DNA of 64,000 nucleotides from contig NZ_VTWS01000005.1 of assembly GCF_008727875.1 (NCBI RefSeq), positions 186,001 through 250,000 of the forward strand, in the 5' to 3' direction. The stretch comes from Larkinella humicola. Its GTDB lineage: Bacteria; Bacteroidota; Bacteroidia; Cytophagales; Spirosomataceae. Shown here one piece after another: positions 55,784 through 62,001 of this stretch. The position numbers and the translations under genes are program-made. The notes beneath the pieces are model-generated. The model had not been told where the DNA came from. It was given only the letters and a program-made list of their open reading frames with translations, and did no database searches. How positions within the stretch are numbered: position 1 is the first letter of the stretch; the number at the start of each line of letters is the position of its first letter.

Positions 55784-55857
55784 TCCCGAATAGCTCAGTC
55801 GGTTAGAGCATCTGACTGTTAATCAGAGGGTCGCTGGTTCGAGCCCAGCTTCGGGAG
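55784..55857 (+). tRNA. tRNA-Asn (anticodon GTT)
   Basis: A 74-base cloverleaf. The acceptor stem TCCCGAA pairs with TTCGGGA (55850-55856), the discriminator is G55857, the D-arm contains TAGCTCAGTCGGTTAGAGCA, the anticodon stem is TCTGA/TCAGA with GTT at 55818-55820, and the T-arm has GGTTCGAGCC. CCA is not encoded. A promoter lies directly upstream and a terminator directly downstream. It marks the left border of the AT-rich island, so its 3' end is the probable integration site. Confidence 0.96.
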
Positions 55858-55860
55858 CAA
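55820..55860. other. candidate attachment site at the 3' end of tRNA-Asn
   Basis: Base composition changes sharply from GC-rich to AT-rich just after the tRNA, and a tyrosine recombinase gene lies 5 kb inside the AT-rich region. The 3' half of a tRNA is a usual attB for such enzymes. The matching direct repeat at the far end must lie beyond the window; I did not find it inside. Confidence 0.35.
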
Positions 55861-55975: not shown

Positions 55976-57979
55976 ATGAGCAACTTTATCCAAGTAGATT
56001 TAGAAAACTGGATTCGATCCATCAAACTAAAGGAAAGCCAGTTTCTATTTCCATTATATGAGGTTGTAATAAATGCAATCCAAGCAATACATGAAAGAAA
56101 TACTAATGAAGGTCGCATTGACATTTTTATCAGGCGCAAATTAATTAATCAGTTGACTATTATTGGCAGCGATGATTCTTTAGGTGAAATTATTGGATTT
56201 GAGGTTATAGATAATGGTGTTGGCTTCAATGAAGAAAATCGAAATTCATTTGGTATTGCCTATACTGGACATAAAGCAAAACTTGGTTGTAAAGGAATTG
56301 GCAGGTTCCTTTCTTTAGCAATGTTTAACAGAATTGAAGTTGATAGCACATATTTAGGGCCCAACATACTGCATTTCCAACGAAGAAGCTTTCATTTCGA
56401 TGCGATAAATAAAATTCATAAAGAAAATGTTATTGATACAAAAGATCGTGAATATAAAACATTAGTTAAGTTGATAGGTATAAGAGATCAATTTAAGAAA
56501 ACCACCCATGCAAGTACTATTGCAAATAATTTATTACATCATTGTTTAATTTATTTTATTAGTGGAAACCAACCATTTATTAGCATAATAGATGAATCTG
56601 TTAATGAGCTTATTGAATTAAATTCATTGTTTTATGATTCCTTCAAAATTGAAGACAATGAAGAAAATGTAAAAATTAAGAATGAAACATTTAGGATAAA
56701 TTATGTAAAAAACTATATTAAGGTTGGAAGCGCACATAAAATTCATTATTGTGGAGATAGTAGGGAGGTAGATACCGAAGGTTTATCTAGGTATATACCT
56801 GTTCTTGAGAAGAAAATATCAGATCAAAACGGGAATTATTTTATTTCTGTTTATGTAAACAGTCCATATTTAGATCGAAACTTAACTCCATTAAGAGATG
56901 AGTTTATAATCCCAAAATCTGAAAAAGATAAAGATGCATTTAATTTAGTTTCATTTCCTGAAATTGGAGAAGAAATAAGTAAAAAAGTAAAGCAACAGTT
57001 TAGTGATGAAATTGATGATTTAACCAATATTCATAGAGAAAAGTATAGAAACTATATTTTTGAACAGGGCTTAGAATATAGGCATTTATTACAAGATGAA
57101 TCCATTTTAGATACTCTTAGACCAGGAAACACCGACAAAGAGAAAGACCTTGAGCTTCATAAGCTGAATTTTGACTTAGAACATAAACAACGAATTAAAG
57201 TAGATCAATTTCTCAATATCAAGGATATAAAAAACTCAGAAGAATATAAAGAGTTACTAAAGGATATAATAAAAGATGAAAATAAAATAGGAGAATCGAA
57301 GTTAATAAACTATATGCTTCATAGAAAAACAGTTCTAAAAGTACTTGGTAAATTCATTGAAATACAAGAGGATGGGGAATTTAAATTTGAAGCTGAAATT
57401 CATGATATTATTTTTTTAAGAGATAAAACTAATGATCAAATTGCCTTCAACAAGCATAATTTATGGATTCTAGATGAAAGAGTCGCTTATACTAAATATA
57501 TAGCGTCAGACAAACGTTTAAAAGAAACAGATTTTCTCTATTCTGAAAGTGATAAAAAACCAGATCTACTTATTTATGATAATAAATTTGTCTACGGTGA
57601 AGGGAACTCATCTATCGTCATATTTGAATTTAAAAGACCAATGCGATCTTATTACACACAAGAAGAAAAAAATGTAGGTAATCAAATAAAAAAGTATATT
57701 AAAGATTTAATGCTAGGAAAAGCACTTGATTATAGAGGGAGAATTGCAAATATAAATAAAGACACTCCAAAATTTGGATATATCATTTGTGACTATAACA
57801 ATGATATTTATAATGAATTAGATTTGGAGGGATATAAAAGAACGCCAAAGGGCACATTATTTAAATATGAAGAAGGATTAAATCTATTCATTGAAGTGAT
57901 GAACTATGAACAACTACTTGAAGATGCCAATATGAGACATAGAGCTTTCTTTTCAATGCTAGGGATTACTGGAATTTAG
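55976..57979 (+). CDS. GHKL ATPase fused to a PD-(D/E)XK nuclease-like domain
   Basis: A 667-residue protein with an N-terminal Hsp90/MutL-type ATPase: N-box EVVINAIQAI (Glu29, Asn33), G1 IDNGVGF (79-84), and G2 GCKGIGRFL (104-112). A transducer-like middle (PYLDRNLTPLRDEFI) and a helical region (about 310-450) follow. The C-terminal part contains LDERVAYTKYIAS, KPDLLIYD (Asp530), and VIFEFKRP (Glu551, Lys553), the spacing of a PD-(D/E)XK nuclease core. This suggests ATP-gated DNA cleavage. The gene is AT-rich, the first in the island after tRNA-Asn, and overlaps the next gene tail to tail by 4 bases. A defence role is inferred from architecture and place only. Confidence 0.8.
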   Translation: MSNFIQVDLENWIRSIKLKESQFLFPLYEVVINAIQAIHERNTNEGRIDIFIRRKLINQLTIIGSDDSLGEIIGFEVIDNGVGFNEENRNSFGIAYTGHKAKLGCKGIGRFLSLAMFNRIEVDSTYLGPNILHFQRRSFHFDAINKIHKENVIDTKDREYKTLVKLIGIRDQFKKTTHASTIANNLLHHCLIYFISGNQPFISIIDESVNELIELNSLFYDSFKIEDNEENVKIKNETFRINYVKNYIKVGSAHKIHYCGDSREVDTEGLSRYIPVLEKKISDQNGNYFISVYVNSPYLDRNLTPLRDEFIIPKSEKDKDAFNLVSFPEIGEEISKKVKQQFSDEIDDLTNIHREKYRNYIFEQGLEYRHLLQDESILDTLRPGNTDKEKDLELHKLNFDLEHKQRIKVDQFLNIKDIKNSEEYKELLKDIIKDENKIGESKLINYMLHRKTVLKVLGKFIEIQEDGEFKFEAEIHDIIFLRDKTNDQIAFNKHNLWILDERVAYTKYIASDKRLKETDFLYSESDKKPDLLIYDNKFVYGEGNSSIVIFEFKRPMRSYYTQEEKNVGNQIKKYIKDLMLGKALDYRGRIANINKDTPKFGYIICDYNNDIYNELDLEGYKRTPKGTLFKYEEGLNLFIEVMNYEQLLEDANMRHRAFFSMLGITGI

Positions 57980-58242
57980 ATATTAGTATTATTAATTAAT
58001 CGTTTTCTATTTCTTAAATGTGCCTTCTGGCAACCTTGGCAACAAAAAGACGTATCAACTCGCCTTGCTTCAAAATCTCTTTCGCAGTAAAGGCATTTTT
58101 TTCTATAGAACATCCCCTTAATGGTATAAGAGCTTGTTCCATAATCCGGGTCGTAGTTATGGATTCGTTTATTCTTCTGGACTTTTTTGAATCCATAATT
58201 TCGTAAACCATTTTTGTCTTGGATGATGTTCTCTTTTTTCAT
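57976..58242 (-). CDS. small zinc-finger protein of the island
   Basis: An 88-residue basic protein. The C-terminal half has CLYCERDFEARRVDTSFC followed by CQGCQKAH, a CxxC-x(n)-CCxxC pattern like FCS/MYM-type zinc fingers. The N-terminal half is rich in Lys, Asn and Tyr. It lies downstream of the primase gene on the same strand, after an iteron-like region. It could bind DNA at the origin or be a regulator. I do not know a named family for it. Confidence 0.65.
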   Translation of the reverse strand: MKKENIIQDKNGLRNYGFKKVQKNKRIHNYDPDYGTSSYTIKGMFYRKKCLYCERDFEARRVDTSFCCQGCQKAHLRNRKRLINNTNI

Positions 58243-60744: not shown

Positions 60745-62001
60745 TTATACCGCTTGTTGATTCGGAGCTTCATTATCCTTGCGTATCTGATATTCCCGAA
60801 TGTGCCGAATAACTGCTTCTTCACTCCGTTCAGTGTAGTATAGCTCGGTCGTACTGGTTTTTTTGTGGCCTAACATGGTGGCTACGCTGGTTAGCGGAAC
60901 ACCGTTCGCGATATAGTAAGAAGCGCAAGTTTTACGGGCTACATGGGTAGTTAATCGAACGGTAATATTACAAGCAGCTTGTATCTCCTTTAGAATACGA
61001 TTCATTACCTGATTTGCATAAACGGGTAATAATCTTTTACGAAGGATACATTCTTGATTATCAGTGTATTTATCCAAAATCTGTAGGGCTTGCGGCACTA
61101 CCGGAATAATACAGTCATTGTCATTTTTCCCCCGTTTAATCTTGATTAGTTGTTCGCCGTTTTGTAAAGAGAGTAGGTGCGAGGAATTAAGTCTACTCAC
61201 ATCCACATAAGCCAATCCGGTATAGCAACAGAATAGAAAAACATCCCGTACATAGTTGTATTCCCGGCTATGGAAAACCGTTTCCTGTAAAAGGTGAATA
61301 TCCTTTTCCTTTAAGGCAATTACGGCTTTCCGTTCTCTTTTCGGACGAAAAAAGGCAAACGGGTTTTTCTCTAGCCATTCATTTGCAATAGCATAATTGA
61401 GCGTTCTTTTCAAAAACTCGGCGTGTAAAACAGCGTGATTGTGGCCGTGACCGTACGTCTTTTTGCAGAATGTTACTACTTGCTGTGCATCAATCGCCTT
61501 TAGATCAGAAAGCTTCAAATACGGGTTTTGCCGGTAGGTTAGAATATACTGCTTGATTCGTTCAACCAAATACCGCTTCTTTTCTACGGTTTTACGCTCA
61601 AAATCAATACCTGACAGAGATTCAAATTCATCTTTGTAGAATTTGTCCAGGCATTCGATAAGTGTTGGTTTATCTGGCTCAATACCTGATTTGTCAATAA
61701 CTAGCTTCTTTATTTCCCGTAAATCGGGAGTTCGTTTAGTTAGAAGATAATCAGTGAAAGCGCGTTGAAAATCAGATCTTAAGCCCTGTAAATAGGCTGT
61801 GGCCGATTCGTCGTTAATCACAGTAAATGACTTAACATCGAGTTGTCGGGGGCTACATTTTAGACCGGAGCTAAAAGACTGACTTCGGCTATTGTAATGT
61901 AACTTTACATAAATAGCAGTACCCCTTTGGTACAGTTGAACCGTCAGACGCTTTATTCGGACGTTTTGATTAGAATCAGGTAAATGTTTTACCTTTGCCA
62001 T
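60745..62001 (-). CDS. tyrosine recombinase (integrase) of the island
   Basis: A 418-residue site-specific recombinase with an N-terminal arm-type domain (RIKRLTVQLYQRGTAIYVKL), a core-binding SAM-like domain (about 110-210), and the catalytic domain. The residues seen are Lys in IKRGKNDNDCIIPV, HVARKTCA (HxxR), LGHKKTSTTE (His) and the nucleophile in LYYTE. The first catalytic arginine (TGLR in most integrases) is replaced: TGLAYVDVSRL. This replacement is also known in IntDOT-type enzymes of Bacteroides. It should insert and excise the element at tRNA-Asn. It is on the minus strand and 5 kb from the presumed attachment site. Confidence 0.93.
   Translation of the reverse strand: MAKVKHLPDSNQNVRIKRLTVQLYQRGTAIYVKLHYNSRSQSFSSGLKCSPRQLDVKSFTVINDESATAYLQGLRSDFQRAFTDYLLTKRTPDLREIKKLVIDKSGIEPDKPTLIECLDKFYKDEFESLSGIDFERKTVEKKRYLVERIKQYILTYRQNPYLKLSDLKAIDAQQVVTFCKKTYGHGHNHAVLHAEFLKRTLNYAIANEWLEKNPFAFFRPKRERKAVIALKEKDIHLLQETVFHSREYNYVRDVFLFCCYTGLAYVDVSRLNSSHLLSLQNGEQLIKIKRGKNDNDCIIPVVPQALQILDKYTDNQECILRKRLLPVYANQVMNRILKEIQAACNITVRLTTHVARKTCASYYIANGVPLTSVATMLGHKKTSTTELYYTERSEEAVIRHIREYQIRKDNEAPNQQAV

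Follow-up and report, generated by a model that had tools for sequence, protein, structure and literature searches.

A predicted GHKL ATPase-nuclease of the Shedu kind at the tRNA end of an integrative element in Larkinella humicola

Could a single gene lodged at the tRNA border of an integrative element encode an ATP-gated nuclease that acts against phages, and if so, of which kind? This question is raised by a gene of Larkinella humicola (positions 55976-57979, + strand) in the 64,000-nucleotide stretch of contig NZ_VTWS01000005.1 that we analysed (hereafter the window), whose 667-residue product is called P0001. An earlier note, made from the letters alone, had proposed a stand-alone defence protein with a GHKL ATPase at its N-terminus and a nuclease-like core at its C-terminus. 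We consider it likely, at roughly 80 %, that the gene encodes a GHKL-Shedu protein (Shedu type I-D-like; paraMORC3) that would act by itself as an ATP-gated nuclease against phages. P0001 has invariant ATPase and nuclease residues, predicted folds for both halves, a nuclease that is Shedu-like by profile comparison and a mobile context; its role in defence we infer.

The intact gene is real, as we confirmed from its reading frame, which starts with ATG 117 bp past tRNA-Asn(gtt) and is uninterrupted over 667 codons. The open reading frame (ORF) listing holds no other frame of at least 60 aa inside these positions on either strand, and the single reverse frame translated across the gene has stops throughout. 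The 3' end of the gene shares 4 bases with an ORF on the opposite strand (57976-58242, -). The parts of the gene on which the argument rests are the following.

55976..57979, + strand: predicted GHKL ATPase / PD-(D/E)XK nuclease gene, 667 aa (Shedu type I-D-like, paraMORC3-type), from ORF, motifs, homologues and model
55976..57004, + strand: GHKL (Bergerat) domain and S5 domain, residues 1-343
56060..56074, + strand: N-box, from E29 (general base, by analogy) to N33
56210..56224, + strand: G1 box, D79-N-G81-V-G83
56285..56305, + strand: G2 box, G104-CK-G107-I-G109-R110
56894..56896, + strand: R307, likely S5 arginine finger
57005..57328, + strand: long-helix middle, residues 344-451, helical in the predicted model and possibly a clamp or stalk
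57329..57976, + strand: PD-(D/E)XK nuclease domain, SduA_C-like, residues 452-667, by predicted fold and profile comparison
57389..57391, + strand: E472, glutamate of the E-D-ExK motif
57563..57565, + strand: D530 (PD)
57626..57634, + strand: E551-x-K553

The three GHKL boxes (E29/N33, D79-x-G81-x-G83 and G104-xx-G107-x-G109-R110) and the nuclease-like D530-x20-E551-x-K553 core lie where the earlier note had placed them. Conservation was assessed in an alignment of 79 full-length proteins, namely the query and 78 of 84 loci (L006, L035, L059, L066, L073 and L076, being split or short, were left out). E29, N33, D79, G81, G83, G104, G107, G109, R307, E472, D530, E551 and K553 are identical in 79/79, while R110 is found in 78 and Q570 in 72 of them. 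Since these residues are identical in all or nearly all of the aligned proteins, the motifs are not due to chance. They make up the N-box, G1 and G2 of a GHKL ATPase, probably the arginine finger of S5, and an E-D-ExK set such as restriction-fold nucleases carry; for R307 we take the role of arginine finger from Hsp90 and MutL.

The predicted structure agrees with this division. AlphaFold2 modelled the whole protein with a predicted local distance difference test (pLDDT) score of 88.5 and a predicted template modelling (pTM) score of 0.73, and residues 452-667 alone with values of 89.2 and 0.87; the middle region forms helices at 343-363, 366-380, 387-413 and 421-461. Sequence and model together have the N-box, G1 and G2 and a Bergerat fold followed by an S5 fold, which places the first half in the GHKL superfamily with S5. 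The C-terminal part has the core fold of the PD-(D/E)XK superfamily, with D and ExK at the predicted active site. Its structural matches are mostly PD-(D/E)XK enzymes (Shedu, EndoMS, N.BspD6I, FokI, McrC and others); Shedu nucleases are the best of them, tied with other enzymes of this superfamily. The earlier note had staked its nuclease on a PD-(D/E)XK fold at residues 520-560, and this region indeed falls in the domain with these structural matches. With the whole model, Foldseek gave a list dominated by matches of the GHKL half, and against viral proteins it returned topoisomerases and RIIA-like proteins, which we judge to reflect the GHKL half again. A Pfam PDDEXK_9 match at residues 34-53 was rejected as a false lead, as it lies inside the GHKL domain.

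To which nucleases is this domain related? As a source of Shedu sequences we used 50 PF14082-matching loci (L110-L159) from the genome of locus L010, from the window's own phylum and from the class of an Acinetobacter genome, and 47 SduA_C domains taken from them made up the Shedu profile. With hhalign, the C-terminal family aligned with these domains at 96.5 % (P 9.4e-10, 146 columns), the Shedu D and ExK pairing with D530 and E551-x-K553. Column-shuffled controls (n=30) reached 0.6 % at most, the GHKL half gave 0.2 % against Shedu, and the comparison with Mrr gave 0.2 %; reversed sequences gave a best E of 0.19 against the Shedu profile, versus 1.8e-6 forward. An earlier, narrow Shedu set (one family, 35/121 sequences) had given weak values of 8 % and 4 %.

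Several results weigh against a Shedu assignment. Pfam found no PF14082 (SduA_C) in P0001 at E <= 1, a match to this model being a matter of the detection threshold of a curated profile and not itself a biological feature. P0001 itself matched the Shedu profile only at E 0.033, and HSDR_N reached 95.0 % by hhalign (P 3.7e-8), over a shorter stretch (94 vs 146 columns). Because of this HSDR_N value, we also counted direct profile matches and brought in a group of GHKL-Shedu sequences, and both comparisons favour Shedu. In the direct search, 16 of 240 family proteins (120 each from searches with P0001 and with a Vibrio fluvialis homologue) matched the Shedu profile at E < 0.001, compared with 0/240 for HSDR and 0/240 for Mrr; all 16 belong to the P0001 search, with 0/120 from the V. 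fluvialis search. When 9 GHKL-Shedu domains were added, the hhalign value for Shedu became 98.0 % (P 1.4e-13, 149 columns), with HSDR at 81.9 % and Mrr at 20.1 %.

The GHKL-Shedu set itself came from proteins found by PF14082 that carry an N-terminal GHKL domain (L137, L138 and L156), a search with L137 yielding more; these three had no match to the profiles of P0001's own family. Further GHKL lineages occur in genomes of the window's phylum (L222-L247 and L156, with L222 and L223 identical to the proteins of L137 and L138), and 12 of 22 GHKL proteins, those with a Shedu-profile E <= 1.7e-4, were selected as GHKL-Shedu proteins. Residues 5-666 of P0001 aligned with these 12 at 99.4 % (P 6.3e-22, 551 columns), part of this score being due to the GHKL half that is common to all, and the alignment continues through the nuclease with ExK on ExK. 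Subsets gave 98.5 % (8 proteins, 557 columns), 97.4 % (3 proteins, 403 columns) and, for the smallest (2 proteins, 144 columns), 91.8 % over the nuclease end only; the nuclease end alone gave 97.0 %. Given the end-to-end alignment and the match of the nuclease end, P0001 groups with the GHKL-Shedu proteins, within a clade to which the Pfam model is blind. As judged from profiles, the closest kin of its nuclease is Shedu (SduA_C), although one measure puts HSDR nearly as close, and the homology to SduA_C that defines a Shedu nuclease is found in it. Moreover, P0001 unites GHKL and an SduA_C-like nuclease in a single polypeptide and is co-linear with GHKL-SduA_C proteins, which is the arrangement of Shedu type I-D. 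A frame of 349 aa elsewhere in this genome contains a PF14082 Shedu gene as well (G000:C11:1374032-1374469, L132).

The libraries that we used pass over this protein. On P0001, Pfam gave HATPase_c only, below its threshold (19.8 bits vs a cut-off of 26.4), NCBIfam gave one match far under its cut-off (11.5 of 300 bits) and PADLOC gave none. For 73 homologues chosen for spread from the best 120 of 230 (set A1), PF14082 is absent from the 25/28 Pfam families listed, and PADLOC gave scattered weak matches only (AbiEi 3, TmtA 2, three others 1 each). By sequence search of the PDB, P0001 had no match at E <= 1 and alignment A2 none at E <= 10, and A1 had four weak ones (E 0.28-0.85). The family is nonetheless large. 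The search with P0001 found 230 of 7994 scored candidates at E <= 1e-3, the best 120 of which cover at least 90 % of the query, and that with the V. fluvialis homologue found 2528 of 7997 at E <= 1e-10. When one genome per species was scanned with a pattern, at least 240 relatives were confirmed, 80 of which were retrieved. From the organism names in the record titles, these 80 presumably represent Bacteroidota, Proteobacteria, Cyanobacteria, Acidobacteria, Actinobacteria, Firmicutes, Nitrospira, Planctomycetes, Chloroflexi and one archaeon (L036).

Classic Shedu SduA, with structures from Bacillus cereus (8ti8/8ti9) and Escherichia coli (8ps4/8ps5), has a different N-terminal part that is not known to include a GHKL domain, and the MORC and Hsp90 ATPases are not known to have a nuclease domain and serve other functions. 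The earlier note had recognised no named system here; on this point it must be corrected, as the architecture is that of paraMORC3 (PMC2292703) and of the anti-phage protein VcSduA (PMC12137116). It is thus not an unnamed kind, having been described in 2008 and shown to act against phages in 2025 in VcSduA. By the definition of Iyer, Abhiman and Aravind (2008), a paraMORC3 protein combines GHKL-S5 with a nuclease at the C-terminus that has the E-D-ExK residues; they describe the family as sporadic, prevalent in proteobacteria and Bacteroidetes and in a subset stand-alone (PMC2292703); compared by description, P0001 has this same make-up.

VcSduA, from the WASA lineage of Vibrio cholerae, was shown to block phages; it is of the GHKL type, and the PD-(D/E)XK domain at its C-terminus was named DUF4263 (PMC12137116, Nat Microbiol 2025). 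There, E27A and K557A each abolish phage protection, growth curves suggest that the cells survive, apparently without host killing, and the authors assign the protein to Shedu type I-D and link it to paraMORC3 (PMC12137116). Like VcSduA as published, P0001 is one protein with N-terminal GHKL ATPase motifs I-IV, a middle part that may be a clamp (modelled as one for VcSduA) and a C-terminal PD-(D/E)XK domain; its ATPase glutamate 29 and nuclease lysine 553 compare with residues 27 and 557, and its gene likewise lies on a genomic island. Unlike in VcSduA, whose nuclease is called DUF4263, Pfam detects no such domain in P0001. The two were compared by published residues only; P0001 and the V. fluvialis homologue share 31.2 % identity. 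The residues matching E27/K557 are E27/K556 in the V. fluvialis homologue, E27/K557 in P0091, and 35/552, 30/506 and 29/507 in other GHKL-Shedu proteins. In the literature library that we searched for GHKL with phage defence, Shedu, SduA and paraMORC, none of the papers listed deals with this very protein.

The gene's position at the tRNA border of an integrative element, as the earlier note had it, was borne out: two 49-bp repeats, perfect and 33,027 bp apart, bound an element of 33.0 kb, with the GHKL-nuclease gene as the first gene inside its tRNA-Asn end. The sequence between the repeats has a guanine-cytosine (GC) content of 39.4 %, and in 2-kb windows GC falls at the gene start from 0.51-0.54 to 0.28. 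The landmarks of the element are given below, where window-equivalent coordinates carry the window's numbering on past its end.

55784..55858, + strand: tRNA-Asn(gtt), integration target
55811..55859, + strand: left att repeat, 49 bp, at the tRNA 3' end, with its perfect copy at window-equivalent 88838-88886
60745..62001, - strand: tyrosine integrase inside the element (Phage_integrase match)
window-equivalent 87396-88766, - strand: second tyrosine integrase, adjoining the right repeat (Phage_integrase match)

Since there are two integrases and also two VapE/primase modules, the element looks composite. In one congener (G003), the tRNA end is joined to 96 bp (87 %) that match the right repeat and the sequence beyond it in our genome, a short junction that is consistent with an empty site; longer sequence past the right repeat lies elsewhere in 6/8 congeners and was not found in 2/8.

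The gene is patchily distributed. Within Larkinella, the family occurs in 1 of 9 genomes, that of L. humicola, and within the taxonomic family in 12 of 200 at E <= 1e-20 (our genome included; one match partial, two distant). Around an Acinetobacter genome picked because it carries a relative, 369 genomes were sampled; apart from that genome itself, 1 of the other 368 matched. Relatives are present in 55 of 72,556 plasmid records (28 conjugative, 6 mobilizable and 21 non-mobilizable by database typing) and in 1 of 50,697 phage records. The gene was expected by the earlier note to be mobile cargo, and to fail as a defence candidate if homologues were confined to core, non-mobile contexts; plasmids, a phage and patchy genomes are where they were found.

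Would the protein work alone? A paraMORC might instead reshape DNA for a type I or other restriction-modification (R-M) system, and paraMORCs have been tied to R-M in general (PMC2292703). The homologue is the last gene of a type I R-M operon both in Salinivibrio and in V. fluvialis, and in the latter it directly follows a classic Shedu gene. Profiles found HsdM-like proteins in the flanks of 11, HsdR-like in 10 and HsdS-like in 6 of the 80 genome loci. However, no R-M gene adjoins the GHKL-nuclease gene in the window, and BLAST clustering found no neighbour family in more than 7 of the 84 loci. As these neighbour counts have no random-locus control and the flanks are unequal (up to 8 kb, often shorter), they show only that no partner is constant. 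With no constant neighbour, the gene usually stands alone and only now and then has restriction genes beside it, in line with the single-gene status first proposed. Moreover, VcSduA gave protection in E. coli even in the absence of its neighbouring genes (PMC12137116), and we regard a role as an R-M accessory as quite improbable. On the V. fluvialis plasmid pIDH5335-1 (L083:4619-8013), where these two genes close the R-M operon, the classic Shedu gene shares 4 bp with the GHKL homologue, and homologues at least 95 % identical occur in other Vibrio.

Alternatively, the protein could serve the element and not phage defence, through superinfection exclusion, competition with other elements for the same tRNA or plasmid exclusion. 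The gene is the first inside the tRNA-side repeat, homologues lie beside integrases in phage vB_RanS_PJN03 and after the integrase gene on plasmid pSLIN02 of Spirosoma linguale, and in 4 of 8 congeners (G001, G002, G004 and G006) 45-50 bp from the tRNA end or its terminator are present a second time, so that elements may compete for this site. Yet VcSduA acts on phage (PMC12137116), and only 8 of the 80 genome loci had a tyrosine integrase in their flanks, one of them doubtful (L018, where the ORF overlaps the gene itself), which leaves a function for the element unlikely in our view. A tRNA scan of 60 of the 84 loci found 5 with a tRNA, which in L013, L023 and L067 lies within about 600 bp of the gene. 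The phage homologue (L084:2485-4509), deposited as an N-acetylmuramoyl-L-alanine amidase, looks mislabelled. We hold it very improbable that P0001 works in chromosomal repair as MutL-like or EndoMS-like enzymes do: GHKL-S5 plus nuclease is the logic of MutL too, and EndoMS/NucS is among the structural matches of the nuclease domain, but the patchiness of the family, the low-GC element that carries the gene and the plasmid-borne relatives argue against it.

GHKL-S5 proteins dimerise on ATP and use a basic residue of S5. For a GHKL-Shedu nuclease, two copies of P0001 would probably dimerise through their GHKL domains once these have bound ATP, and R307 of S5 would complete the ATP site; the S5 domains and long helices could close around DNA as a clamp. 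The binding and hydrolysis of ATP would then set the position of the C-terminal PD-(D/E)XK domains, and cutting might be limited to cases in which the clamp has hold of something foreign, for instance an end, a junction or an uncommon topology of phage DNA. The gene travels as cargo at the tRNA end of the 33-kb element, together with other defence-like genes.

Other cargo includes multiubiquitin, DUF6791-ThiF, DUF6527, HTH-M78 and MrcB_N-HNH genes. DUF6527, DUF6791-ThiF (E1-like) and multiubiquitin genes lie in a row in a ubiquitin-like operon shortly past the end of the window (window-equivalent 65680-67958; L108:9981-12259, -). The HTH-M78 gene (window-equivalent 68265-69850; L108:12566-14151, -) matches PADLOC RmrA at 5.1e-41, and its 155-aa neighbour had no Pfam or PADLOC match; the two are perhaps a toxin-antitoxin or defence pair. 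The MrcB_N-HNH protein (window-equivalent 75600-76538; L109:3600-4538, +) has a weak type IV restriction match, and its gene is a probable type IV restriction gene.

More speculatively, the clade may be a Shedu subtype of its own, spread over many phyla and unseen by Pfam, NCBIfam and PADLOC, in which a Hsp90/MORC-like ATP clamp would read phage DNA topology or ends before a diverged Shedu nuclease cuts. Its trigger would then be unlike the end-binding clamp of E. coli SduA, which binds DNA ends (PMC12904381); we offer this as a tentative idea that is well short of an even bet. P0001 points to a widely spread GHKL-Shedu clade whose relatives are annotated as 'ATP-binding protein' or 'hypothetical protein', and the gene offers a clean one-gene case outside Vibrio for how an Hsp90/MORC-type ATPase may gate a Shedu nuclease.
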